From Bifidobacterium breve (GTDB taxonomy: Bacteria; Actinomycetota; Actinomycetes; Nanopelagicales; Nanopelagicaceae): a DNA stretch of 64,000 nucleotides. The notes beneath the pieces are model-generated. The model was not told the DNA's origin. It saw only the letters and a list, made by a program, of their open reading frames with translations, and did not search any database. Position numbers and translations under genes: made by a program. This document shows positions 9,018 to 24,252 of the stretch, piece after piece (position 1 is the stretch's first letter; each line of letters begins with the position of its first letter). The stretch is from contig CAMCYA010000001.1 in the NCBI GenBank assembly GCA_945883675.1, positions 38,271-102,270 on the forward strand. Reading direction: 5' to 3'.

Positions 9018-9413
9018 CTAGATTTTGACCACAACTTCAATGATCGCCTGTGGTGTTGCGCTGCCACCTAGCTTTTGTTCAACATTGGTGGGCAGACCAT
9101 TTATCTGCGCAGCCGATAAAACCGCCAACTGCGCTGCGATATCACTCATCCAATACAGAGCAACTGGCCCTGCCCGATCAATGATCCGCTGTGCTTCAAG
9201 TATCTGAGCCTCACTAAATTTGGGCACATCATTATTGTTATCGTTTATCGTATTGAGTAAATACCTCTTTATATCAACAGCAATACTGGTTGCATCAGAT
9301 GACTGGGTTATCAGCTCTTTTAACTGACCATCTAAAGTGCGCGGCTTGCGCTTTTTCTTTGTGCGATTAAGAAATAGAAATATCACCAGGGTCAACAGCA
9401 GGAATTCGATCAT
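9018..9413 (-). CDS. hypothetical protein with N-terminal TM helix
   Basis: 131 aa ORF, MIEFLLLTLVIFLFLNRTKKK N-terminus. Confidence 0.65.
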   Translation of the reverse strand: MIEFLLLTLVIFLFLNRTKKKRKPRTLDGQLKELITQSSDATSIAVDIKRYLLNTINDNNNDVPKFSEAQILEAQRIIDRAGPVALYWMSDIAAQLAVLSAAQINGLPTNVEQKLGGSATPQAIIEVVVKI

Positions 9414-9495
9414 GCCTAGAACCTAGCGATCCCCACTGACAATATAAAGAGGTGCTGAGCCCCCATTGCTATCGCCTGTGTATTAGAGTTTCAGT

Positions 9496-10167
9496 ATGGG
9501 ATTTTTCGCCAACCTCAAACACAAGCGCGCTCAGAAAGATGCCCGTAAGCAGTTTGAACTAGAACAGGCCAACTGGGACGCCGACCACGCTCTGCTTGAA
9601 AAAATGGAGACAGTCTTTACCAATGCAAGCAATGGCATTGACTCTGTTCAAAACTTTTTGGTCAACGAAAAAGGCGAAGTTGTTCTCTTTAGCGCACCTG
9701 CAATCTTTCATGAGACCAGACGCGGCCCAAGCCAATTCGTTGGTGGATCATCTGGTGTAAGCATTCCTGTTGTCGCAGGCATTCGCTTTCGCGTTGGCGC
9801 AATGCGCGGCACTTCACTACCTGGGGCTGACTCCCAAGCAGATCTTGATCAAGGAAACGTTATTGTGACAACAACTCGCATTCTCTTTGTCGGCCCTATG
9901 TATACAAAGGAGTGGGAGTTCTCCAAACTATTAGGAGCATCCGCGCTAAACGATGACTCTGACTACATCTTTAATGTTTCTAACCGCCAAAAATCATCCG
10001 GTGTTCGAGTTGAAGCCCACCAAGGCGCAGAATTCAATAGAGTCTTAGCCCTAGCAATCACCGCAGCAGAGGCAGGAGTTGGCGCAGTACTTGCAGAGCT
10101 TAAAAACATTCGTAAGCAGTTAACAACAAGCAAGCCAATGTTAGAACTACCAAGCCCGCCGGCTTAA
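9496..10167 (+). CDS. hypothetical protein
   Basis: 223 aa ORF with no competing ORF. Confidence 0.75.
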   Translation: MGFFANLKHKRAQKDARKQFELEQANWDADHALLEKMETVFTNASNGIDSVQNFLVNEKGEVVLFSAPAIFHETRRGPSQFVGGSSGVSIPVVAGIRFRVGAMRGTSLPGADSQADLDQGNVIVTTTRILFVGPMYTKEWEFSKLLGASALNDDSDYIFNVSNRQKSSGVRVEAHQGAEFNRVLALAITAAEAGVGAVLAELKNIRKQLTTSKPMLELPSPPA

Positions 10168-10188
10168 AACTAATCGATAGTCCTTTAT

Positions 10189-10554
10189 TTACTTCTTTGT
10201 CTGGCGCCAGTGATAGAGATAAAGCGGTGCGGCAACAGAGATAGTGATGAAGGAAGAGAAAATGCCCTTTATCGCTTGTATTTGATTATCTCTTTCTTGC
10301 TGCTCCACTAGCTCAGGCAATGGCGCATTTTCAGGCTTTGCATATACATCTATATATACAGGGTTAGGAAATACTGAATTCATAATCGCATTGATCAAAG
10401 AAACTGTTGAGAACAAAACAACGAGCAAAGTGATTAGGCATACGGCATAGAGATAGAGCGAACGCCAATCAATTCCATCACTATGCGTTTGGGTTGCTGG
10501 GGCTTTTGCAGATTTCGTTGCAGATTTCTTAGCAACCTTCTTAGCTATGGCCAT
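10189..10554 (-). CDS. hypothetical membrane protein with Lys/Ala-rich N-terminus
   Basis: 121 aa ORF, two TM-like segments. Confidence 0.65.
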   Translation of the reverse strand: MAIAKKVAKKSATKSAKAPATQTHSDGIDWRSLYLYAVCLITLLVVLFSTVSLINAIMNSVFPNPVYIDVYAKPENAPLPELVEQQERDNQIQAIKGIFSSFITISVAAPLYLYHWRQTKK

Positions 10555-10602
10555 AGTTATCTCCTAGTGCAATTGATGGGTAGAAATAATCAGGTGTTCA
10601 CT

Positions 10603-10737
10603 TTAGAGACCTTTCAGGACTCCAAAAAAGGCCATTGTGCCTGCAGAAATAAAAAACAAAATAAGTGGAACCCAACCAAAGATTTTGTATGGAGTGATCT
10701 TTCCGGTCTTTACACCGGTTTCATTTTCTCTGTTCAT
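10603..10737 (-). CDS. small hypothetical membrane protein (44 aa)
   Basis: MNRENETGVKTGKITPYKIFGWVPLILFFISAGTMAFFGVLKGL; single TM; internal start in the 10603..10839 ORF. Confidence 0.4.
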   Translation of the reverse strand: MNRENETGVKTGKITPYKIFGWVPLILFFISAGTMAFFGVLKGL

Positions 10738-10895
10738 ACGGCAAGGGTATCGAAACTGCCCGCAGTTAGTTGCATGTGGGGGTGTTGCCCAATGGGCATT
10801 TGATGAAATGTGTCTTGGAGTTCTAGCAGGGACAACCAACTAAGGAGTGCTGGCCAGTGCAACTAAATCAATTTTATCAACTAGATTAGGCCAAC

Positions 10896-11261
10896 ATGAG
10901 CGCAATAAGAAAAACCCTGCAGACCGGATCAATTGTTTTTGGTGGATCTGGGCTTTTTCTTCTTATTCTGCCAGCGCTATTTCTAGATCTTCTAGCGCTA
11001 GAGACAAATGATCAGCTAGTTTGGTCAATGCGCATGATCGGCATAACGGTCTTTGCTCTGGCCGGAAACATGTGGAATAACGCAGCCCACAGCAGTGATG
11101 TGCGAGTTGCAAATGTTGCCAAGATAATGTGTGTAAGTGCCACAGCCTTAGGCGTACTGACTCTTATGATCCCAGCAGAGCTAACCTGGTTTACCTATCT
11201 ATATGCAGCAGTGGGATTTGGTTTTGGTATTGCCTACGTAGTCGGTCTTATCCGTAGATAG
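10896..11261 (+). CDS. hypothetical four-TM membrane protein
   Basis: 121 aa hydrophobic ORF. Confidence 0.7.
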   Translation: MSAIRKTLQTGSIVFGGSGLFLLILPALFLDLLALETNDQLVWSMRMIGITVFALAGNMWNNAAHSSDVRVANVAKIMCVSATALGVLTLMIPAELTWFTYLYAAVGFGFGIAYVVGLIRR

Positions 11262-11718
11262 TGTCTTGCTCTAAATCACCACGGCCTGTAACAGGCGGCT
11301 TTGCCTTTCGCGCCCTCCATGCACCTGTGCACCACAGCGCCCACACCACCAATAGCGGCTGAAAGAACAAGCGCACCAAGCGTGATGTGTCACTATCTAA
11401 ACCAAATGCATCTATGCCATTGAGATACTGAGAGATGTTGCCAGGAAAGATAGCCACAAAGAAAGCTGCAACAACCCAACCTACTTGAACGCGATATCCC
11501 CACAACCCAATAAGGGATAGACCTAAAACAATTTCAACCACCCCAGATGCCACAACAACAAAATCTGCATAATCTTTTAACACCGATGGAACCTGTGCCT
11601 GAAACTCCTGGCGGTTAGTAGTTAAATGCCCAATACCTGCATAACCAAGGGCCAACCCCAATACAACTTGTGCGACCTTACGGATGAGTTCCATGGGGTA
11701 AGTAAACACCTTGAACAA
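11248..11718 (-). CDS. DoxX-like membrane protein
   Basis: LALGYAGIGHLTTNRQEFQAQVPSVL....ASGVVEIVLGLSLI, four-TM DoxX-like pattern. Confidence 0.7.
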   Translation of the reverse strand: MFKVFTYPMELIRKVAQVVLGLALGYAGIGHLTTNRQEFQAQVPSVLKDYADFVVVASGVVEIVLGLSLIGLWGYRVQVGWVVAAFFVAIFPGNISQYLNGIDAFGLDSDTSRLVRLFFQPLLVVWALWCTGAWRARKAKPPVTGRGDLEQDTIYG

Positions 11719-11755
11719 GCTCAGATTGTCACCGTCCGTTAACTCACAATTCTGG

Positions 11756-12814
11756 TCAGGGTTTCACTCTCACCAGAAACAGATACTCCAGTGTTTTGTC
11801 ATCCATATCTTTATACTTTCGCTTTTCGTGATCTCTCTCGGTTCTAAACCTCCGATATTCCTGGGTAAAAACTTGGACTTCACCTTTAGATTTCAAAATC
11901 GCCATTAAATCTTCATGGGGGATAATTCCCTCATTGTTGTAGCTTAGGACTACAAACTGAAAGTTAGCTTGCGAAATAATTTTGCTCAACGCTTGCGTAG
12001 CTTTCGTCTTGCTGCTGAAATCAGACTTCTGATCCTCATAGTTTCGCAAACCTGTTTTCCCGGAGAGGGCTTGCTTGTCCCAAACGGCAATCGACTCTAG
12101 CACATGAAAGTTTGGCGCGTACTGACGTGAATTGTAAGGTGGGTCTAGATATAGAATATCGCCCGAAATTTCAGTTATTAGATCTTCTGCTTTTTTTTGG
12201 TACGCGTAGTTACATCTTGAGTTACCAAATACGGGCCTACTTTTTAGATTGATCCTCTTTAATGCTACAGATCTCCAGATTTTGAGAAATGCCCCATAAG
12301 TTCCAGACATATTAGCGACATGATCAGCCGCATCAATTAATACAGCGAGTAGATAGTAAAACTCTGCCTCATTTACTAAGTTTTCGTTCTTCCATTTTTG
12401 AATCGTATCTCTCATCGCGTCAATTAGGCAGGCGTTTTGTTTTGTAAAGTACATCCGATTCTGACTACCCTCCGCACCGTAATTTTGAAAAGCGTACCCT
12501 TCTTGTGGTGCCAAATTGTTTAGATAGTCAAGAATTGCTTGAGCTGGAGTGGTTGAAACCCTCAAATTCAGTGACTCAACAGCTTTATCAAAAGTTGGGA
12601 CTTCATTTGATTCAATAAAAGCCTTTTGCAATACATATGAGTAGGTCATGAAATCATTTGAGGTTATCGAGAAACCCAGCTTCTTAAAATGTTCAGCAAC
12701 GCTTGTTGTCCCTGAGAAGAGATCCGTTAAAGTTCCCTGGAGTGGCACCGCGGCTGACTTAAGTGATTCTTCTATAAATCCAAGCAAATTGGATTTATTC
12801 CCAATGTACTTCAC
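11756..12814 (-). CDS. N6-adenine DNA methyltransferase (D12/Dam-like class)
   Basis: MKYIGNKSNLLGFIE N-terminus, LFSGTTSVAEHF (motif I), LYLDPPYNSRQY (motif IV). Confidence 0.9.
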   Translation of the reverse strand: MKYIGNKSNLLGFIEESLKSAAVPLQGTLTDLFSGTTSVAEHFKKLGFSITSNDFMTYSYVLQKAFIESNEVPTFDKAVESLNLRVSTTPAQAILDYLNNLAPQEGYAFQNYGAEGSQNRMYFTKQNACLIDAMRDTIQKWKNENLVNEAEFYYLLAVLIDAADHVANMSGTYGAFLKIWRSVALKRINLKSRPVFGNSRCNYAYQKKAEDLITEISGDILYLDPPYNSRQYAPNFHVLESIAVWDKQALSGKTGLRNYEDQKSDFSSKTKATQALSKIISQANFQFVVLSYNNEGIIPHEDLMAILKSKGEVQVFTQEYRRFRTERDHEKRKYKDMDDKTLEYLFLVRVKP

Positions 12815-14892
12815 TTGGAAAAGATCACATCTAGGCGGCTCTGAAGTTCAGATGGGAACTTATCTGAGAAAAACAGCGCGAAATTTGAGATACCCGCCAA
12901 CGTATAAGTTCCAATAACTAAAAAATCTTGATTAGCAAGTTTATCTAAGTGACCTGCTCTAATGGATCCAATGATTTTTTGTTTTTCTGATTCCAAAAAG
13001 TAATCTGAATCAACTTCAGGAACGTCTAAGAGGCAAATAAAGCTGATTATCTTTTCATTAACCTTAGCCTTGTAGAGGTCGTCAATCACATTGCGGATAT
13101 TGTTAAAAGCCGACTCAATCTTATTTCTTTCTGCTGCAGAGCTAAAAAAATCCGTGTACTTCCTCTTTCCTTCAGCCGCAAAAAATAGGTTATCTGGACT
13201 TTGCATGACCAAATCGACTTTTGAGTCATTGCGGCCAATTTTGGCCGTATCAAGAAAATTAGCACTATCACGAATCCTGATCTGCTGCCATGAAGAGTGA
13301 TGTATCGCGATCATGCAAACATCCCAGTCGGATCCAATTACCCCCATCTGCAAATATGTTGAGATTACTCCCATGTCTTCAGTCGTGTTCAATGGCGTCA
13401 TGTTCAAAATTGACTCTATGTTGTAAGTTTTATGCATTTTCACAGGAGCCTTGAACTCGCTAATTACTTCTTTCGTGTCCATCACAAGTACATCAGAATA
13501 TTTCGCAACGGATCTATAGATATTCGTTTCGTTCTTAGTATGGATATCAAAGGCAGGAGGATTAGTTGAAACGCAATACGCCAAGACACTTCTCTTAGGG
13601 TTACCAGCAGCGTCGAACCCAAGAAGTTCAGAGAATGCAGCCGTATTACCTGCGTACGGATCTTTAGTAAATTGAAGATTTCCATTACTTGTCTTGTGGA
13701 AGTAGATTGGAACAATCGCAGTTTCTTTGAACTTGAGAATACTCTCAAGCGCTTTCTTTGAAACTTTGTAATTCTTTTCACTTAAGAATCTAACAACTGA
13801 CTTGGAATCAACAATGCCCGCAGCGAATTTCGAGAGAGGAGCAACCGCTGGGGGCAAGTGATTTTCTTCAAGAAAGTTAAATAGGTCCTTGATGTAGACC
13901 ATATTCTGCTTGTCAGTCCATTTTTTCATTTTAGAAACATTCAAATCAGAAAAATCATACCTTTTCTGGAACTCAGTCCTTTTTTCCTTTGGATTGTGCA
14001 AAAATTCTGTGAGTTCATCTATAAATGTTTCGGTATCTGACAGCAAGGCTCTCTGGACCATGGGATTAATACAGGGAAGGTCGAGCAGTAATCTAGGTTG
14101 ATGTTTAGCCCCTGGTGCACCCGAATACTTTGCTTCTCCAAGGTAGCCAGCCATTGACTTGTATATCTCGGCTTCAATCTCACGATATAGATTGGAGTTG
14201 TCACCAATTTCATCTAGAACATATGCTGAAAAAAGTCTTGAAATCACATTAGGAGAGAGGGCATCGGCTCGTTGACGTGTTCGTGAAGATTCAATATTAG
14301 GTTCGATGAAAAATACTAATGAAGAGACTTGATATCTAATTGAATAAAGGAACGCATTGTAAGCGAGCAAAGAAGATGGTTCGCGTATTGTGTCTGAGCT
14401 ATCGTCTTTACCAGAGTATACAGTTTGATAAATAAATGGAACTCCAAGCTCTGCAGCAGCAATTTTCCGCAATTCACGTTGCCATTGTGAGTTTCCTACG
14501 CTTGCAGTTTCAGTTATTTCTCCAGCAAGGGCAATCCTGTCATTAGTTACATTGTAAAGAACAAAATCAGGGAGATCGTATCGATAGATTAACTCCGAAA
14601 CTTTCGCTGGGAGAGGCCAATTTGTATACACGCCACAAGCTTTAATGGAAATTATCTGTTCCTTGTATGTTTTGAAGACATAAATGGGCTGATCGATAGG
14701 CTCATAAACCACATACTGGAAATTCCAAATATCTTCCTGCTCTATAGCTGGGTTTAGCAAAGTGAAGCACTCCAACAAATTATCTCCAAACAAAATGAAC
14801 TCAGCGCAACTGGATCCTTCTGTAAATGACTTATGTTCTGCAAGAGATTTAATTTTTCCCCTAAGCAGGTGCTGATTATTCACATCCTGCAT
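12811..14892 (-). CDS. candidate restriction endonuclease (PD-(D/E)xK-like), 693 aa
   Basis: Overlaps the downstream MTase by 4 nt and sits between two MTases; C-terminal KVDLVMQSPDNLFFAAEGKRK fits a D...ExK core; N-terminal LPDFVLYNVTNDRIALAGEITE may be a second degenerate core. Confidence 0.7.
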   Translation of the reverse strand: MQDVNNQHLLRGKIKSLAEHKSFTEGSSCAEFILFGDNLLECFTLLNPAIEQEDIWNFQYVVYEPIDQPIYVFKTYKEQIISIKACGVYTNWPLPAKVSELIYRYDLPDFVLYNVTNDRIALAGEITETASVGNSQWQRELRKIAAAELGVPFIYQTVYSGKDDSSDTIREPSSLLAYNAFLYSIRYQVSSLVFFIEPNIESSRTRQRADALSPNVISRLFSAYVLDEIGDNSNLYREIEAEIYKSMAGYLGEAKYSGAPGAKHQPRLLLDLPCINPMVQRALLSDTETFIDELTEFLHNPKEKRTEFQKRYDFSDLNVSKMKKWTDKQNMVYIKDLFNFLEENHLPPAVAPLSKFAAGIVDSKSVVRFLSEKNYKVSKKALESILKFKETAIVPIYFHKTSNGNLQFTKDPYAGNTAAFSELLGFDAAGNPKRSVLAYCVSTNPPAFDIHTKNETNIYRSVAKYSDVLVMDTKEVISEFKAPVKMHKTYNIESILNMTPLNTTEDMGVISTYLQMGVIGSDWDVCMIAIHHSSWQQIRIRDSANFLDTAKIGRNDSKVDLVMQSPDNLFFAAEGKRKYTDFFSSAAERNKIESAFNNIRNVIDDLYKAKVNEKIISFICLLDVPEVDSDYFLESEKQKIIGSIRAGHLDKLANQDFLVIGTYTLAGISNFALFFSDKFPSELQSRLDVIFSK

Positions 14893-14894
14893 GG

Positions 14895-15863
14895 TTAGCT
14901 CTTTTTAAGTATGAGGATATTTTGGTGAATCATTGAAGGTACAAATGCTGCTGGATAACCATAGACGTGAAGCATTTTGGAGACATCATACCAAATCAAA
15001 TTTGCTTTAAGAGTCCAGTTTCCCGTGGCTTGAAGTCTGTCAGCAAGAGAAGCTGAAAGCATGTGATATCTACTTTCTCTATACATGTCGCCAATAAACA
15101 CTGCAGCATATTTTCCGTCTTTGAGACATTTATGAGCGGCAGTTAAAACTTGATCCATTTCATCGAGCCACTGATCTTTAGTTTGATCTTCACTATCATT
15201 AAACGTGGCTAGTTTTGAGGCTTTGGCAGTCTTGCTTCGAGTCTTTGCTAATTTATCGATATTCCAATACGGAACATCAGTCAAAATAAAGTCGTAAGAT
15301 TTGGGCTCAATTTTGAGCAACACATCTTTTGAGTCACCCTGCAGAAATTCTTGCTCTTCCAAATTCTCAAGAGTCGTAACTTCCTTGTAAATTTCAATCC
15401 ATCTTGGATCTAACTCAACGCCTGTCGCACGTCGACCAATCAATGATGCGCCGAGAAGCGTTCCCCCAACCCCACCAAAAGGATCGAGAACTTTTTGACC
15501 CTTCTTTGTGAAAATTTGGATCAGATCCGCGCAAAGCTGGGGAGGCTTTTGTCCGCCATGTTGTGATCGCAACTTGTGCTGCATGTTCACTGGATAAGGC
15601 TTATTGATCACCGACTTTGTAGAAAATTTCCACTCAGCACCAGTAAGGTCGTTGAGAGTGTTATTGGGTGCGACCGTTTTTACCGCCGGGGCTTCAACAT
15701 CTCTTGTGACAATAGGTGCCGATTGAGCAGCTGTGTCTTTCTTCTTTCTGGAAGTAGGTTTTTTTTCAACCGCCTTAACTTCCAAGAAGCTCATCTCAAA
15801 CGCCAATGGATCTTGCTTGCTTGGTTTTGACACTTTACCCAACTCTCGATTAATTGTTGACAT
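14895..15863 (-). CDS. DNA methyltransferase (N4/N6 type) with TDVPYW catalytic-like motif
   Basis: VLDPFGGVGGTLLGASLIGRRATGVELDPRW (SAM motif) and YDFILTDVPYWN (motif IV variant). Confidence 0.87.
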   Translation of the reverse strand: MSTINRELGKVSKPSKQDPLAFEMSFLEVKAVEKKPTSRKKKDTAAQSAPIVTRDVEAPAVKTVAPNNTLNDLTGAEWKFSTKSVINKPYPVNMQHKLRSQHGGQKPPQLCADLIQIFTKKGQKVLDPFGGVGGTLLGASLIGRRATGVELDPRWIEIYKEVTTLENLEEQEFLQGDSKDVLLKIEPKSYDFILTDVPYWNIDKLAKTRSKTAKASKLATFNDSEDQTKDQWLDEMDQVLTAAHKCLKDGKYAAVFIGDMYRESRYHMLSASLADRLQATGNWTLKANLIWYDVSKMLHVYGYPAAFVPSMIHQNILILKKS

Positions 15864-15960
15864 ATCATTTCTTTCTATTTTCCACTGCTGACATTACTTG
15901 CCCAATACGACAAATGCCTGAGTTTAAGCAAAAAAAGCGATAATTTAAGGTTTCGCCTGA

Positions 15961-16158
15961 CTAATTTTTACTGTTCGAAGGCCTACCTTTGTTCTTCTCC
16001 TCTGCCTCAGCCATGGCTTCCTCATGCATCTTAAAATAGGCATCGTTTGCTTCGGCATCGTCTCGGTCGTCAAAGATCTCAGACCACTTTGCATGAACTC
16101 TTTGAGTAATCCTCAATTTCTCATCTCTTGGATAGGAGCAAAATTTTTTGATTTTCAT
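15961..16158 (-). CDS. small hypothetical protein (paralogue of 19693..19866)
   Basis: DEKLRITQRVHAKWSEIFDDRDDAEANDAYFKMHEEAMAEAEEKNKGRPSNS; internal start preferred. Confidence 0.6.
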   Translation of the reverse strand: MKIKKFCSYPRDEKLRITQRVHAKWSEIFDDRDDAEANDAYFKMHEEAMAEAEEKNKGRPSNSKN

Positions 16159-16189
16159 TATGTTAGTAAAGTAAGTGACATAATTGAAC

Positions 16190-16738
16190 CTAAAGTTTTT
16201 TGAGTTCTCTGACAAGCTCTTCATCTTCAAGGTTCAAATAGAGCCCAACTTCCAAGCCCTCTAAATCCTTAACAATTCCTGGGTCAGGATTCAAAAATAA
16301 CTCAGTCCATTTGCTCAATCTGTTCGAGTCATACTCATTGGGCATTCCATCTCTGACCCAGCGGCTGAACAAGCCACGCCAATCAGGCGCACTAGAACCC
16401 CATTCATTAAATAACTCCCCAAGAACATCACAAAGTGTGCCACAAATATAAAAATTAGATTCTCCGGTTTCATCGATATCACCAAAGCTATAAAAATAAA
16501 GATGCTCCCGAATGCGCGCAATGCGGCCACGGTACTGGGCATACAGTGTCCAATTTTTATTCTCTTCGGTTGTCTCTACTAGTGATTCAAATTGGGTTAA
16601 TTCATTTTGACTTAAACTTGAATCTGGACATAAATCCGGTAGCTCTACTTTTCCGATTTCTTTGAAGTTGTAAAAGGAGACCGGGAAGTCAGTGTGCTCG
16701 CCACCACAGTCACACACCTTTATTGCGATCTTTTGCAT
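16190..16738 (-). CDS. hypothetical protein
   Basis: 182 aa ORF, acidic. Confidence 0.7.
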   Translation of the reverse strand: MQKIAIKVCDCGGEHTDFPVSFYNFKEIGKVELPDLCPDSSLSQNELTQFESLVETTEENKNWTLYAQYRGRIARIREHLYFYSFGDIDETGESNFYICGTLCDVLGELFNEWGSSAPDWRGLFSRWVRDGMPNEYDSNRLSKWTELFLNPDPGIVKDLEGLEVGLYLNLEDEELVRELKKL

Positions 16739-16769
16739 TTAAACAACCCCTCCTCTAGAAATCAAATTC

Positions 16770-17621
16770 CTAAATCTCCTCCAGAAGTTTGGATTTCTTT
16801 TGGTCAAATTCTTCTTTCGTGATCAAGCCCTTTTCGAGTAAACCTGCAAGCTTTTCAAGACGAATGGCAGGGTCGTCGGTTGACTGTCCTGTGGAGATAT
16901 TGTGAGTTAACTCAACCTGCTTTTTAATCTCCCATAATTTACTAAACATTGATCGAACATGATTTGAATATTTCTCAATTTCTTCAACTGTTTCCATAAA
17001 AATTGCCCACTGCTCATCAAAACTCGCTCGCCAACCATTGTCATGATAATCCCCAAAAGGTGACCACTCTTCTATTAATTGATCACCAAGTTCGCTCATA
17101 GTTGAGAATGACTGCTGTGCGACTCTCTTTAAATTGTGTAGCACTTCGGGGTCAAAATCGATTTCGCGAAATTCTGAATAATCAAAATCCAACCGTTCAA
17201 GGATTTCCTGCATGGAAGTTTCTGCGGCCTGCCATATTGTGCAGAAGACAGCCATATTGGGAGCATTCAAAGCTAATTTATCTGCCGCGCTGCTGTAGTC
17301 ATGGGCTAAGGGTTGGAGAGTTTGTGAAATTGCGTCTCTAAACTTAGCCCAGTCGCCATCTTGATTTTTTGTGTCTCTGCATTGATTTGCTGCGTCCCAA
17401 AATAATTCATATTTATCTTCTAAGTGATTTAGAGCCTCGTCCATTTTAAAATCCGAGTAATACTCAATCTTTGGTTGAGTTATTTCTTCAATCAATTCAC
17501 GGAGTCTGTTTACATCCCCTGTGACCTTATTGAAAGAATCTGCAATAGCCGTTATCTGATCTTCTTGGTTTCGTCTCTGATCTTCAAGCTTCCTTTGATA
17601 CATATCTTCGAAAATTCCCAT
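16770..17621 (-). CDS. coiled-coil hypothetical protein with C-terminal SHOCT-like domain
   Basis: C-terminus IRLEKLAGLLEKGLITKEEFDQKKSKLLEEI matches the SHOCT pattern. Confidence 0.78.
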   Translation of the reverse strand: MGIFEDMYQRKLEDQRRNQEDQITAIADSFNKVTGDVNRLRELIEEITQPKIEYYSDFKMDEALNHLEDKYELFWDAANQCRDTKNQDGDWAKFRDAISQTLQPLAHDYSSAADKLALNAPNMAVFCTIWQAAETSMQEILERLDFDYSEFREIDFDPEVLHNLKRVAQQSFSTMSELGDQLIEEWSPFGDYHDNGWRASFDEQWAIFMETVEEIEKYSNHVRSMFSKLWEIKKQVELTHNISTGQSTDDPAIRLEKLAGLLEKGLITKEEFDQKKSKLLEEI

Positions 17622-17625
17622 GACT

Positions 17626-18126
17626 TTAGCCCCTCATCAATTCTGCAAACTCCATGACGTCCCATTGAAAGCCATTTGCCCTACCCCAGGGAAATTCTTT
17701 TCCATTTGAGGTAGTCATGTCTAGGGTTCTTAGGTAAATCTTTTCCTTATATCTTGTCAGATTTGAAAGGGTGAGATTTACCGGTGCGGTAACTCTCTTG
17801 CCTTCTGCGCAGTTGGGCTGGCATAAGTTCTCAGACAGAACTCCAATCCCGGTAGCTCCCTTTTTACCCCAAGTGGACCACTGGATCTTTTCGACAAAGA
17901 TGCCCCCATCGGCACATGTGATGGTGATGATTTCAGGCTTGTATTCGGCGGTTTCACAGTCCCATGTAAAAACCTGTGCTGTAGTGATTGGTTTAGAACT
18001 TTGATTTGAAAACAAACTCACTGCAAGTGCGGCGAATAGGAACACCGCACCTGCAGTGATGGCGACTCTGGAATTATTCACCTTTAATGGTCTCTTCCAG
18101 GGTCTTAAGTCGGCGACGGATCTCAT
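17626..18126 (-). CDS. hypothetical membrane-anchored protein
   Basis: 166 aa ORF with a TM segment (AVFLFAALAVSLFS). Confidence 0.65.
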   Translation of the reverse strand: MRSVADLRPWKRPLKVNNSRVAITAGAVFLFAALAVSLFSNQSSKPITTAQVFTWDCETAEYKPEIITITCADGGIFVEKIQWSTWGKKGATGIGVLSENLCQPNCAEGKRVTAPVNLTLSNLTRYKEKIYLRTLDMTTSNGKEFPWGRANGFQWDVMEFAELMRG

Positions 18127-18991
18127 CGGCTTCAGTAACTCGACCTTTAGTGGTCAAGATATTTGCAATCTCTTTCTCAATTTCAATTGCTAGCTCCCAA
18201 TCTGGCTCAATTGATCTGGAATTGATTGAGAGTGCTTGGGACAAAAGCTCTTCTGCTTCATCTAATTCTGCAAGTAATATCTTGGTGCGGCCCAGGCGAT
18301 ACTTTGCCCAAGATTCTAAAGAACTGTTCTGTGCTGTGATTGCAAAGTCCAATCCTTTTTGGGCATGAACTGTTGCTTCAACACCATTTGCAAGTTCTAT
18401 ATAACTAACCGCTAGATACTGATCACAGAAGTAAACCTTTTCAGGCTCTGTGTCCCTTTTGAAGTGTTCACGTGCCTTGATTAGGTAATGAACTGCTTCT
18501 GGATACCTTTCCAATTTCATCATTGTAAATCCAACGTTATAGTTGTCGATTCCTATTGTGTAGTCGGTGATCTCTGGATCCAACTCTTGCATCGCCTTAA
18601 GATGACAATCTAATGATTTCTGATGCTCGCCTGCGGTAAAGAAGAACCGTCCTGCTTCTCGCAACATAAATGTTGCATCAACCGGATTATCTTCTTTGAG
18701 AACATCTACTGCGTGAAGTGCCAACTCTGCAGCTTCCAATTCTCGGTCAAGCTTTCGAAGAGACCACGTGATTCCCTCATACACATGGAGTAATGCTTGG
18801 GTACTTACTGTTGCTTGATGAGATTCATAAATATCTCTTGCACTTTCACAGAGGGCTAGCGCTGATTTAAAATCACCGCGGTCATATGCCATGTGACTAA
18901 GTGTTACAAAATGTTCGGCGCGATCAACGCCTTCGGAGCGCGGGATGCTGGCCCAGAGCTCTTTTTCATCAGGATTATTTTCTATGTTCAC
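18074..18991 (-). CDS. TPR-repeat protein
   Basis: Repeated TPR-like helices; GTG start at 18991 after AAAGGAAA preferred over the 19072 ORF start, which runs into the inverted repeat. Confidence 0.78.
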   Translation of the reverse strand: MNIENNPDEKELWASIPRSEGVDRAEHFVTLSHMAYDRGDFKSALALCESARDIYESHQATVSTQALLHVYEGITWSLRKLDRELEAAELALHAVDVLKEDNPVDATFMLREAGRFFFTAGEHQKSLDCHLKAMQELDPEITDYTIGIDNYNVGFTMMKLERYPEAVHYLIKAREHFKRDTEPEKVYFCDQYLAVSYIELANGVEATVHAQKGLDFAITAQNSSLESWAKYRLGRTKILLAELDEAEELLSQALSINSRSIEPDWELAIEIEKEIANILTTKGRVTEADEIRRRLKTLEETIKGE

Positions 18992-19030
18992 CGTTTCCTT
19001 TCTTGAGACAATGCTGCTTCTAACTGGTGG

Positions 19031-19153
19031 AAAAGTTACTACCCGCCACTGACAAATCTGCATGGTGGCCAAGGGTTAGCGCCGGGCAGCTTTTGGGACG
19101 AGATCGATCCCGGCGTTTCCTTTTGAGAGTGTCAGTAGCAGGTAGTACCTTTT
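19031..19153. repeat. imperfect 24-bp inverted repeat (arms 19031-19054 and 19130-19153) around a CGCCGGG/CCCGGCG stem
   Basis: Arms TGTCAGTGGCGGGTAGTAACTTTT (minus) and TGTCAGTAGCAGGTAGTACCTTTT (plus), 21/24 identical; inner 7-bp stem 19080-19086/19109-19115. Confidence 0.6.
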
Positions 19154-19169
19154 ACATAGGTCAATGAAT

Positions 19170-19310
19170 CTAAGCGCTAAGCCCTTCGGCTTGCTTAGTA
19201 CCAACCGCGCAACTCGCGCACGGTGGTCTGAAGGAAGACCTGCTGGCGATGAAAGACACCGCCAGAAGTAGCGGGTTTTTTCATGTAAAAACCCAGTTGG
19301 AGCTTAACTG
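19170..19310 (+). ncRNA. candidate structured RNA or leader: tandem hairpins
   Basis: Consecutive stems at 19170-19198, 19205-19223, 19225-19240, 19244-19264, 19273-19294 (GGGTTTTT/AAAAACCC) and 19294-19310, directly upstream of the ATG at 19313. Strand uncertain. Confidence 0.35.
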
Positions 19311-19312
19311 CC

Positions 19313-19486
19313 ATGTCTGATAAACATAAAAGTGCACTGCTTGAAGCCGAAGGGGTTTATTTTCAAGCCCTTTGTAGCTGCGGCTGGTTCTCAAACGTTT
19401 CCTTTAAGGAAGAGGTTGATTTACTGAGAGCCCTACATATCCATCAGATGGCCGTGTTTGGAATAGCCGTTAGTGATGGAAATTAA
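19313..19486 (+). CDS. small CxCGW-motif protein (57 aa)
   Basis: MSDKHKSALLEAEGVYFQALCSCGWFSNVSFKEEVDLLRALHIHQMAVFGIAVSDGN; below the ORF track cutoff; 3 nt upstream of the next small CDS. Confidence 0.55.
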   Translation: MSDKHKSALLEAEGVYFQALCSCGWFSNVSFKEEVDLLRALHIHQMAVFGIAVSDGN

Positions 19487-19489
19487 ATT

Positions 19490-19696
19490 ATGGGAACAAT
19501 AATCCTTACCGGAATATCACATGGTAAACATCAATTCTCGCTTACCTACCCAGAGATTGAAGGCGTAATAATCTGTTTGGCACATTGCAAATGTGGCTAT
19601 GAGGTTGAGATCATCAACTTCAGAAGTTACGGTGGGACAAAAGATCTCCAAATGAAGTGGGAGAAACATATTGGTACTTGGAAGGGGTGGGATTAA
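19490..19696 (+). CDS. small CxCGY-motif protein (68 aa)
   Basis: CLAHCKCGYEVEI motif; follows the previous small ORF. Confidence 0.5.
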   Translation: MGTIILTGISHGKHQFSLTYPEIEGVIICLAHCKCGYEVEIINFRSYGGTKDLQMKWEKHIGTWKGWD

Positions 19697-19866
19697 GAGT
19701 TTGCTGGTCGATCCTTATACTTCTCCACTGCTTCCGCCATTGCTTTATTTAACATATCCCAATTAGCAGATTCGGCTTCGGTATCTTCCCTGTCGCCATA
19801 AATTTCTTGCCATTGCTTATAAACCTCTTGGGTAATGCGTAACCGCTCAGATCTTGGAATTGTCAT
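19693..19866 (-). CDS. small hypothetical protein (paralogue of 15961..16158)
   Basis: SERLRITQEVYKQWQEIYGDREDTEAESANWDMLNKAMAEAVEKYKDRPANS. Confidence 0.55.
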   Translation of the reverse strand: MTIPRSERLRITQEVYKQWQEIYGDREDTEAESANWDMLNKAMAEAVEKYKDRPANS

Positions 19867-19991
19867 TTGTGCTCCAACATACGCCAAGTTTAGGTCCTGG
19901 GGCAGACAAAAGGTGAGTAGCGTGGGATCACTCTTCCGCTAATTCTTTATCCCTAAGCTAACTTGTCACCCCTCTCCCCTACATTCCATAC

Positions 19992-20270
19992 ATGAGTACA
20001 AAACGACGTAGGCGGTCTATCAAGCTTTTGGTCTGCCCTTCATGCCAGCAGATAGGTGTTCTTAGAAAGATTGTTTATGGGATGCCAGATCCAGAGATCT
20101 TTGACTTTGAAAAGTTTGCAGTCGGTGGGTGTTGTCTCTGCGCTCCTTCTCGGTTTATCTTTTACCCATGGGAATTTTTGGGAAAGACAGTGATCCTGAG
20201 AAGGAATCGAAGCGAATTGAGCGGCAAGAAAAAGCCAAGGAGTTATTCGGCAACGAGATTGGAAAAATAA
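19992..20270 (+). CDS. zinc-ribbon-like protein with CPSC..GGCC motif, apparently truncated or divergent at its C-terminus
   Basis: LVCPSCQQIGVLRKIVYGMPDPEIFDFEKFAVGGCCL, then a basic tail overlapping the next CDS. Confidence 0.45.
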   Translation: MSTKRRRRSIKLLVCPSCQQIGVLRKIVYGMPDPEIFDFEKFAVGGCCLCAPSRFIFYPWEFLGKTVILRRNRSELSGKKKPRSYSATRLEK

Positions 20271-20815
20271 AGGGTTCCTACAAAAACCAGAAAGATTTGT
20301 TCATCCAGGCACAGTCTGGTCATTACGTCGGCGTGTCACCACAGAAGCTATTTCAAGTTGTATTGATTGTGGGAGCAGATCGTAAATACTCGATCACTTT
20401 TATTGACAAGGCGAGCCATTCTGTCACTTTTCAGACAAATAAAAGAGAAAAATTTTGGGACGGTACCGTGAGTTGTGTAATTATTGCAATGGAAGATGGA
20501 TCACGAATTAGTGTCTCAGGTAATGCAGAACAAGGCTCTACGACAAGTGGATTTAGTCCTTTGCAGTGGTCGCCTTTTCAGCAAATGGCTTCAGATGGGG
20601 CCGTAATGGGAGAAATAGGAAAGCTAAAACAAGCGATTGCAAAACAAGTACCTATAACTCCAGAGCCGCAGAAGGAAGATACAAAGGATATGGATCAGTC
20701 CACAAACAACGTGTCTGACATTCCAACTCAAATTAGACAATTAAAGGAGCTTTATGACGCAGGAGTACTGAGTCCTGAAGAGTTTGAAAAAGCAAAAGCA
20801 AAACTGCTGGGATAA
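20168..20815 (+). CDS. hypothetical protein with C-terminal SHOCT-like domain
   Basis: C-terminus TQIRQLKELYDAGVLSPEEFEKAKAKLLG; internal start MGIFGKDSDPEKE. Confidence 0.75.
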   Translation: MGIFGKDSDPEKESKRIERQEKAKELFGNEIGKIKGSYKNQKDLFIQAQSGHYVGVSPQKLFQVVLIVGADRKYSITFIDKASHSVTFQTNKREKFWDGTVSCVIIAMEDGSRISVSGNAEQGSTTSGFSPLQWSPFQQMASDGAVMGEIGKLKQAIAKQVPITPEPQKEDTKDMDQSTNNVSDIPTQIRQLKELYDAGVLSPEEFEKAKAKLLG

Positions 20816-20900
20816 GCACTGGAAGGAAAAAGATCCTTCTACGAAAGTTTTGGGTGTGTTGGCAGTGCTGTGTCAGTGAGGGCAGATAGGTTTTTGAGAG

Positions 20901-21332
20901 TTAATTACTGCCGGATACATACTGTTTAAGCGCTTCATTTTCTACAGAGATCTCATTGACATGGTGTTTAACCACATCGCCGATAGAGACGATAGAAAGC
21001 AAATTGCCATCAGCATCTACAACAGGAACGTGACGAATGCGCTGCTTAGTCATCAATTCCATAACTTCAGAGACTGTCGCATCAGATGTGCAGGTGTGCA
21101 CGTTAACTGTCATGATGTCTCGCACATGTAGATCTTCCATCATGTCGAGCTTGCCAGGCATTGCTCGGACAATGTCTCGTTCAGAGACGATTCCATCGAT
21201 CACTTTGCCATCAAGTGAAACAACCATAGCGCCGATGTGAAAGCTATTGAGAGATTCAACTAAGTGTTTCACCCTGTCATTAGCCGAGATTGTATGAACG
21301 CGCTTGTTTGCAATGAGGGTTTGGATTTTCAT
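20901..21332 (-). CDS. CBS-domain protein
   Basis: Tandem CBS repeats (VVSLDGKVIDGIVSERDIVRAM; RIRHVPVVDADGNLLSIVSIGDVVKH); ATG at 21332 after GGAGACAGA. Confidence 0.92.
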   Translation of the reverse strand: MKIQTLIANKRVHTISANDRVKHLVESLNSFHIGAMVVSLDGKVIDGIVSERDIVRAMPGKLDMMEDLHVRDIMTVNVHTCTSDATVSEVMELMTKQRIRHVPVVDADGNLLSIVSIGDVVKHHVNEISVENEALKQYVSGSN

Positions 21333-21618
21333 TCTGTCTCCTAACCATGAAGTGTCTAGATACTTCTCTTGGTAAGGGGACAATGCAATAGGCAGGGATG
21401 GGTTAGGTCTGCTTTGGGTGCTCGGGCTGCACATGCGAGCTTTCGGCCTTTAGCGCAGAGGCCACCATGAGATGCGGATATCCCTATACGACGTGAGAGA
21501 GATCCTGCAATTACTCCTGCGATACCGGTTCCAACTCCAGAGTTAGAGCCTGCTAAATAATTTATTAAACGCTACGAACCAACCCACAAATTCGTGGCCA
21601 TATATCTAAACCAAACTA

Positions 21619-22119
21619 CTACTTGTTACCAATAGCTTTTTTCAAATCTTTATATTCTGAACAATTGACACCGCAGAGAGTCAAAAGTTTTGCAAGATTA
21701 CTTTTGGCAGAGGCTATCTTCTTAGTGGTGACAAAGAGCTCGCCCTGGTATTCAAGTGCGCCAAGGTGATTAGGGTTAATTTGCAAAGCCTTGGTGTAGT
21801 AAGAGGCAGAGGAACTGTAGGACTTTAACTTGCGTGATGTGTAGCCAAGTAAGTTGTTGACATCTGCATTGTTTGGAAAGGCTTTATCTATCTTTATTAG
21901 CTCTGTCCGTGCTTTTTTAAAGTTATTTGAGCTCAACATTGGATTGATACGAGTCAGCTCAGTTTGCACTGTTACTACTGGCTTGGCTGGTGTGGATGTT
22001 GATGTGGGTGCTTTTGATGGTGCGGGTGTTACTGCTGGCGCTGGCGTTGGTGAATAGTCCCCGTGGGCCGCTGGCGCCATAAGGGATAGCGCAGCAACAT
22101 AGATCAACAGTTTTCTCAT
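21619..22119 (-). CDS. secreted TPR-like protein with Pro/Thr/Ala-rich linker
   Basis: Signal peptide, TPAPAVTPAPSKAPTSTSTPAKP linker, TPR-like ALQINPNHLGALEYQGELF. Confidence 0.75.
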   Translation of the reverse strand: MRKLLIYVAALSLMAPAAHGDYSPTPAPAVTPAPSKAPTSTSTPAKPVVTVQTELTRINPMLSSNNFKKARTELIKIDKAFPNNADVNNLLGYTSRKLKSYSSSASYYTKALQINPNHLGALEYQGELFVTTKKIASAKSNLAKLLTLCGVNCSEYKDLKKAIGNK

Positions 22120-22212
22120 AAGAAAACGGTAGCAGTGCGGTATTCAGTGCGCACTTTGAACAAGGTCACACCCTGGCTTTGACCCACAGCAATAATTCAC
22201 CTCCTGCCTGAA

Positions 22213-24156
22213 CTAGGCCCAGACCCACTTAAAGCCATTAATCATGTAGTAAATATATACAGCAATGAAGATGTATATGGCAGCGCCAGTTATTCGATAT
22301 GTCATCACGCCCCATTTGTTCTCCACAAAGTAACGCGGGGTGTGGGTGTGCTCCTCTGTTAGTGCATCGATGATTGAAAAAAACAGCAGTGGAACTAGCG
22401 CTATTTCCAAAATCAGCTCCTCGTGCACTTTCAGATTTGGATTTTCGAGTAATTTGGTCAGAGCAATACCTAATAGGAAAAGAAGTGCAATCTTTGGTGC
22501 TCCACGTAAATTTAGTGAACCCAATCTGTTGGATGGATTTTTCCACATAAGTTTGATCAGGCTTGGCAGGGCAAAAAGTGCAATTATCATTGGAACAGCT
22601 GCTGACCCGTTTTTAAATGTTCCAATTGAGGTGATGAGGATCCAAATCCAGGCACTCTTTAGAACAGTTCGCAGAAGGATAGAGATCCGTGACTGCACGA
22701 GATCGTTTGAAATCATCTCATTTAATCGATCGCCCCAATTTCTAGAGACATAGTGCTCAATGAAATATCGGATGATCAAAGCAAACCAAATCAATGCTGC
22801 GATCTTTATGGGGGCATCTTTAACGTCAAACTCCGCCCCTGACAAATCTGAAATTACGCCAATGACCTTCCAGACCATCCAGCCAGTAACTAATGGGCTT
22901 AGTAAGTAGTCGACTGCATAATTCCAGTTACGACCAGGGTCTCTATGCAGGCCATCGAACTTCCTTAAAACGCCAGCAAAAAGGGGTGGAGTGCAAGATA
23001 TTAAGAAAATAGATATTAAAGTGGAAAAAATTCGCTTCGGTTCATCTGGTATTCCAGAGGGTAAAACTTTGGCGAAAAAAACCAGTGTTACAAATGTTGC
23101 GCCAGCTAGTGCGCCAGCTAATGAATCAAGTACTCCAATTGCGATCATAAGAGCCATACAGATGAAAGAAGGAAGTAATGAGGAAAGTAGCGTAGAAGAT
23201 GAAGAAATCCCAGGGCGGCTCTGGATTTCAATAAAACCAAAGATGCCAATCAATATTGCCATTGGGTAGAGCAAGAAGGAGATTGAACCCAAAACTGCCC
23301 TTAAGTAATCACCATCTCTAATGATTGTGGCTACCCCAGGGGTAAAGCGAGAGATTTTTTCAATTCTAATTCTCAGATAATTCTCAAAGAATCTATACTT
23401 AGCTAAAGTGACGGCGGGGTTTAATAAAAACCTTAAGAACTTTTTTCTAGCTCCTTCTATTTTTAGTTTTTCATCTCTTCTGGCACTAATTTCTATGTAC
23501 TCAGGAACACCTTGTTCATTTGAAGCACCTCTAGGAATGTTATTAGAGGAAGAATCTTTGGAAGTTGAAACACCAGATACAGCAGCCGAAGTCACCATCA
23601 TGGCAAAAGTTGCAAGGACAACAATTGTTGTGCTGACGCCTGAAGCTGTCTTGGCCCCCTGATCATCTGCCAGTACAACTTCTCCTTCCCCGGGTGGTGT
23701 AATTTCTAAAAGTGGGACCCAGGCAGTTTCATCAATTCCCTCTTCGTAAAGGGCATTTCTCCAAACACTAAAGTAAGTTTCACCTATCAAAACACCATAT
23801 TCTCGATCACAATAGGTCTCACCATACCGAGTTACGAAATCAGAATTTGCGGCATCCTCGTCGCACTCAGTCGTATCTCTTCCATAAGCAATCGGATCTT
23901 TAAATGTGATCGCTGGCTCTGAATTATTGTCCTGACTCCAAACAAATTTACTTTCGTTATTCGTCGATTTAAAACAGACTAAGTAAATCTGGTCATCACT
24001 GTTTTGATCTGTCGTACCAATAACTGATTCGAACTTATCTGTGCACTCCAGACCAATATAGGGAAGCTCTACTGCGTTTGCATAGAAACTTCCAGAGGCA
24101 AGAATTCCAAGTGAAAGACACAGCACAGGTACGAATTTGAGGAGCCTCGTAAACAT
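22213..24156 (-). CDS. large multi-spanning membrane protein of unknown function
   Basis: 647 aa ORF, signal peptide and many TM segments. Confidence 0.8.
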   Translation of the reverse strand: MFTRLLKFVPVLCLSLGILASGSFYANAVELPYIGLECTDKFESVIGTTDQNSDDQIYLVCFKSTNNESKFVWSQDNNSEPAITFKDPIAYGRDTTECDEDAANSDFVTRYGETYCDREYGVLIGETYFSVWRNALYEEGIDETAWVPLLEITPPGEGEVVLADDQGAKTASGVSTTIVVLATFAMMVTSAAVSGVSTSKDSSSNNIPRGASNEQGVPEYIEISARRDEKLKIEGARKKFLRFLLNPAVTLAKYRFFENYLRIRIEKISRFTPGVATIIRDGDYLRAVLGSISFLLYPMAILIGIFGFIEIQSRPGISSSSTLLSSLLPSFICMALMIAIGVLDSLAGALAGATFVTLVFFAKVLPSGIPDEPKRIFSTLISIFLISCTPPLFAGVLRKFDGLHRDPGRNWNYAVDYLLSPLVTGWMVWKVIGVISDLSGAEFDVKDAPIKIAALIWFALIIRYFIEHYVSRNWGDRLNEMISNDLVQSRISILLRTVLKSAWIWILITSIGTFKNGSAAVPMIIALFALPSLIKLMWKNPSNRLGSLNLRGAPKIALLFLLGIALTKLLENPNLKVHEELILEIALVPLLFFSIIDALTEEHTHTPRYFVENKWGVMTYRITGAAIYIFIAVYIYYMINGFKWVWA

Positions 24157-24252
24157 GTCAAGGAATCTAGCGCTTAACTTTGCATTCTCCTAGCGGTTTC
24201 ACATACCAATTTGGATTCGGATAATTAACCCTTAATCCCCTACCCTGTAGAT

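Follow-up and report, generated by a model that had tools for sequence, protein, structure and literature searches.

A predicted BsmI-like Type IIT restriction-modification operon with a putative GAATG/CATTC target and both single-chain and split relatives

BsmI recognises GAATGC, and BsmI and its isoschizomer Mva1269I cut at positions 1/-1. Type IIT systems are defined by two different catalytic sites, placed in one chain or in two subunits, by two methyltransferases, separate or fused, and by cleavage inside an asymmetric site or close beside it (PMC4081073). BsrDI and BtsI are heterodimeric members of this type with two methyltransferases. BtsCI and BseGI (GGATG 2/0) are single chains that carry a QR-type and a PD-ExK site; in BtsCI the QR-type site acts on the bottom strand and the PD-Xn-ExK site on the top strand (PMC6097692). 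In the FokI system the N-terminal domain of the methyltransferase targets GGATG (PMC5974420). Among haloarchaea, an orphan m6A CATTC methyltransferase (HG4) is present in 41 of 42 Natrialbales, and a CTAG m4C methyltransferase (HG1) in 163 of 181 Halobacteria (PMC10609329). Natrinema methylomes carry Cm6ATTC at 99.9-100% of sites (PMC6696651), and a second source also records CATTC methylation in Natrinema (PMC12160562).

The window analysed here is a stretch of 64,000 nucleotides in which three genes, two of them for methyltransferases, lie head to tail on the minus strand. The genes and the two candidate catalytic sites of the nuclease, located by alignment, are as follows:

15863-14895, minus strand: permuted amino-methyltransferase gene, 322 aa, TDVPYW motif
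14892-12811, minus strand: predicted nuclease gene, 693 aa
14476..14571, minus strand: candidate catalytic site 1, PD-X15-E125-X12-QR (P108-D109, Q138-R139), residues 108-139
13165..13215, minus strand: candidate catalytic site 2, D560-X13-E574-G-K576, of the PD-(D/E)xK type, residues 560-576
12814-11756, minus strand: D12 methyltransferase gene, 352 aa, GTG start, DPPY motif (DPPYNSRQY)

The first two genes are separated by 2 nt (TAA-CC-ATG), and the nuclease stop and the D12 start share the four nucleotides GTGA, so the coordinates bear out an earlier note that described one minus-strand unit of overlapping or nearly abutting reading frames. Its naming of one D12 enzyme (DPPY) and one methyltransferase of a different class (TDVPYW) agrees with Pfam: PF02086 matches the D12 enzyme (E 8e-38), and PF01555 (N6_N4_Mtase) matches the 322-aa protein in two permuted pieces (E 8e-22), with the motif order X - I - IV (TDVPYW). 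As in Type IIT systems, a PF01555-type and a PF02086 methyltransferase gene are thus found in the same operon. A promoter and terminator scan was uninformative, with fewer promoter-like sites than in shuffles. No further copies of the nuclease and D12 genes were found in the draft genome. We consider it highly probable that the three genes constitute a complete Type IIT (IIS-like) restriction-modification operon with a BsmI-like nuclease and a predicted GAATG/CATTC target.

The unit is located in a variable stretch of the genome (window 9018-24250). The one sister genome whose flank was read (G244) shares the upstream dehydrogenase gene with the window, but the genes after it are unrelated up to a TspO-like gene (window 24253, L122 12584). 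Two paralogous small ORFs (window 15961-16230 and 19693-19887; 55% identical over 56 aa), separated by a few kb, lie beside the restriction module. A small zinc-ribbon-like protein (CPxC...YGMPD...GGCC; window 19992-20270, L004 11512-11883; 43% identical over 42 aa) is found near the window locus and near a restriction-modification locus of the genome G260, the latter with unrelated methyltransferases.

The earlier note recognised no family for the 693-aa protein. This holds for Pfam and NCBIfam, where searches returned nothing above cut-off, but the protein is distantly related to BsmI and to BsrDI/BtsI-type large subunits. BsmI is the only solved structure related to it by sequence, with E 0.02 at first for the protein itself and E 4e-4 for a profile of the 13-member family, a weak match that is confined to residues 103-254; the sequence identity is only ~14%. 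An AlphaFold model built from the 13-sequence family alignment (mean pLDDT 82, pTM 0.84) has BsmI as its best Foldseek match over nearly the whole length (E 1.1e-23, TM 0.63/0.64, 743 columns). Four BsmI entries (9f38, 9ez7, 9ezd, 9ez5) were recovered with E 1e-23 to 2e-21, TM 0.62-0.65 and ~745 columns, and the remaining listed matches have TM ~0.1 and are not meaningful; acetyl-CoA carboxylase folds at that level were rejected as artefacts. BsmI is a single chain of 676 aa compared with 693 aa here, and the two folds are alike over their whole length. In PADLOC, a model named "Type II nicking endonuclease" matches part of the protein (E 4e-9, residues 76-170). The large-subunit region homologous to PADLOC PDLC03392, which probably represents the heterodimeric BsrDI/BtsI enzymes, covers residues 76-170 only. 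The best reading is a predicted BsmI/Mva1269I-like single-chain Type IIT endonuclease, and hence a divergent BsmI-type enzyme, not a system of a novel kind.

By motif and by fold, the protein has two different catalytic sites, both of them conserved. BsmI and the window nuclease have the PD...E-X12-QR site in common and two nuclease sites each. E-X12-QR is kept in all 30 aligned homologues (split subunits were entered as fused rows) and can be read in the BsmI alignment as well. D-X13-EGK is kept in every aligned single-chain and small-subunit homologue except the small subunit of Natribaculum. BtsCI and BseGI, likened here by description, combine a QR-type and a PD-ExK site as the window protein does, although their published spacing is E-X14-QR (PMC6097692) and not E-X12-QR. 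By analogy with BtsCI, site 1 would cut the bottom strand and site 2 the top strand.

The exception belongs to a Natribaculum luteum plasmid (NZ_CP095399.1; L002 4860-7943) that encodes a CATTC-type methyltransferase and the large and small subunits of a nuclease, with no D12 gene adjacent. The QR site of the large subunit is intact, and site 2 of the small subunit is degenerate, with N in place of D and the K missing. Judging from these residues, the plasmid may encode a naturally occurring nickase in a lineage that is usually methylated at CATTC.

The target was approached through the methyltransferases. The 322-aa enzyme is 46-51% identical to family members in Natrialbaceae and is conserved along its full core. 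Of 195 Halobacteria genomes sampled, 50 have a member of the family, nearly always in single copy, and the family motif is TDVPYW with few variants (a distant Haloferax relative has TSPPYW). The D in this motif is usual for m6A methyltransferases (the D/S rule). The distribution of the family is close to that of the HG4 CATTC enzyme, unlike that of the CTAG enzyme HG1. Because the distribution matches HG4 and the motif is of the m6A type, homology and occurrence together make this most likely the CATTC m6A (HG4) family, and HG4 and the window enzyme are very probably members of the same family. The predicted mark of the window enzyme is Cm6ATTC, placed on one of the two strands. Unlike it, HG4 is an orphan in haloarchaea, with neither a nuclease nor a D12 partner.

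Fused methyltransferases encoded beside FokI-like genes share ~40% identity with the D12 enzyme in their N-terminal half, and one of the neighbouring nucleases is an orthologue of FokI over its full length (E 1e-119). Among families with a known partner the D12 enzyme is nearest to the GGATG family, and we predict that it modifies the GAATG strand at N6-adenine. Since the complement of CATTC is GAATG, one base away from GGATG, both methyltransferase lines agree on GAATG/CATTC as the predicted target of the system, perhaps extended as in the GAATGC of BsmI. The likeness to FokI includes the asymmetric xxATG site and one methyltransferase activity per strand. The endonuclease architecture of FokI is nevertheless unrelated, and neither the sequence search nor the fold matches listed gave a FokI match for the 693-aa protein; the second methyltransferase of the window is also of a different class from the M.FokI type and is a separate gene. 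This is not a FokI system. A literature search, of incomplete coverage, found no known GAATG Type IIS enzyme, and to our knowledge GAATG is the specificity of no characterised restriction enzyme.

Avoidance of GAATG was considered as evidence for the target and dropped. The word is rarer than expected in the window (z -4.3). Its observed/expected ratio is 0.84 in the host genome, whereas two sister genomes that lack the nuclease have ratios of 0.96 and 0.90. GGATG is depleted in the host and in both sister genomes. The effect is mild relative to the sister controls and is not diagnostic.

A system of the same kind could recognise another site, for example GAATGC or a related sequence, and we see this as possible but a good deal less probable than GAATG. 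BsmI, the one relative with a solved structure, recognises GAATGC, although it is only distantly similar in sequence to the window nuclease, and an asymmetric GAATG, with or without a following C, is predicted here from the two methyltransferase families only. Methyltransferase families can switch specificity at ~50% identity, and the D12 enzyme is nearest to a GGATG family among those with a known partner. Against this, the CATTC-type methyltransferase shows no obvious sign of a changed target along its conserved core, and the publication of CATTC as a motif of five bases, with 99-100% of sites methylated, speaks against the methyltransferase needing a sixth base.

Relatives of the locus place the predicted GAATG/CATTC system in a wider family. 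Scanning genome contigs for the upstream methyltransferase gave 342 relatives; gene order was surveyed in the best 80 of these loci, together with a phylum search. Twelve loci among the best 80 have the order methyltransferase, single-chain nuclease (683-694 aa), D12 methyltransferase, with the 12 full-length nucleases 35-39% identical to the 693-aa protein, and ten more have the same order with a shorter nuclease (599-632 aa). In total, at least ~23 loci in many unrelated phyla, the window included, carry a single-chain nuclease between the two methyltransferase genes. In five others, one from the phylum search (L015) and four from the survey (L029, L030, L044, L045), two overlapping genes encode the nuclease, the large subunit ahead of the small one, with the overall gene order unchanged, and these split forms carry both catalytic motifs. 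As this order is kept in unrelated phyla with the nuclease either single-chain or split, the three-gene arrangement is not due to chance. The earlier note considered two methyltransferases with one large endonuclease typical of systems with asymmetric sites, each methyltransferase modifying one strand; homology, fold, gene order and the published Type IIT definition (PMC4081073) support that expectation.

More distant heterodimeric forms occur on the Natribaculum plasmid and in G260, a genome of the host's own family, where the locus lies near an integrase and has two other methyltransferases. These and the five split loci resemble BsrDI and BtsI in their large and small subunits, whereas the window protein holds both subunits in one chain. 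In a phylogenetic tree one branch (93/96, 96% of bootstrap trees) sets apart the 13 single chains, including that of the window, another (100/100) sets apart the short nucleases, and the split forms lie in between. This topology tentatively suggests two separate fusions, with fission as the alternative, given the long branches. A whole-genome scan with the single nuclease sequence found no relatives, the family being too divergent for exact peptide patterns. None were found in viral contigs scanned with the nuclease and methyltransferase alignments, nor in a search of a phage collection.

Several other arrangements were observed. Two more nucleases of this broad family, putatively heterodimeric (L016 2034-3697, L017 3065-5801), have other methyltransferases, including an m5C enzyme in L016. 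Plasmid loci L007 (3741-5156) and L008 (6790-8205) combine a 471-aa nuclease (PADLOC PDLC03445), which belongs to another family than the 693-aa enzyme, with two D12 methyltransferases, one of them a close relative of that in the window. Adjacent methyltransferase pairs without a nuclease are present in L047, L048, L053 and L063, and in Spirochaetes (L054-L057, L060, L065, L067, L068, L070), where the two are fused in L055 and L056. Several of the Spirochaete pairs share the same gene neighbourhood, and these may be a conserved orphan pair. In L021 (Actinomarina), the closest locus by methyltransferase (71%), the two genes converge and no nuclease lies between them, but the contig ends there.

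The nuclease-free pairs in these four loci and in Spirochaetes, together with the degenerate second site in Natribaculum, would fit an orphan regulatory pair of methyltransferases whose nuclease is inactive or only nicks. For the window we think this improbable: the methyltransferases are not orphans here, the nuclease reading frame is open with both catalytic motifs intact, and the tight operon spacing and the retention of the full unit across phyla imply selection on the nuclease. That the 693-aa protein is part of another type of defence, such as an ABC-3C-like effector, is hardly credible and was rejected, as the match to Pfam CTD8 of ABC-3C systems is below threshold (E 0.067), no ATPase or middle component is encoded nearby, the protein matches no known non-nuclease family, its fold and motifs are those of BsmI, and the PADLOC nicking model matches 13 of 13 single-chain family members.

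The operon would most likely work as follows. The N-terminal part of the nuclease would carry the PD-X15-E-X12-QR site and, by analogy, the recognition surface, and the C-terminal nuclease domain would carry the separate D-X13-EGK site. The enzyme would bind GAATG, and each site would cut one strand in or just beside the recognition sequence, near its ATG end. The D12 methyltransferase would mark an adenine on the GAATG strand and the permuted amino-methyltransferase would mark the opposite strand as Cm6ATTC. With each strand marked by its own methyltransferase, host sites would stay protected through replication, and unmethylated incoming phage or plasmid DNA would be cut.

With about even confidence, we propose that the locus represents a widespread, so far unmodelled family with the BsmI fold that recognises GAATG, and that its CATTC methyltransferase shares an origin with the haloarchaeal orphan enzyme. 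The same even weighting applies, jointly with the GAATG reading, to a family whose members, some single-chain and others split, are spread over many bacterial phyla and include one on a haloarchaeal plasmid. What is new is a broad family that has no Pfam or NCBIfam model, with a predicted GAATG target and a clear series of fused and split members. The analysis offers a predicted target and predicted catalytic residues for proteins that are likely annotated as hypothetical, as the Natribaculum subunits are. That fused and split members coexist under a single gene order shows how two-subunit and single-chain enzymes interconvert. If the reading is correct, the family would provide a possible new 5-bp specificity and ready designs for strand-specific nickases, and it would connect a restriction system with an epigenetic methyltransferase that is an orphan in haloarchaea.
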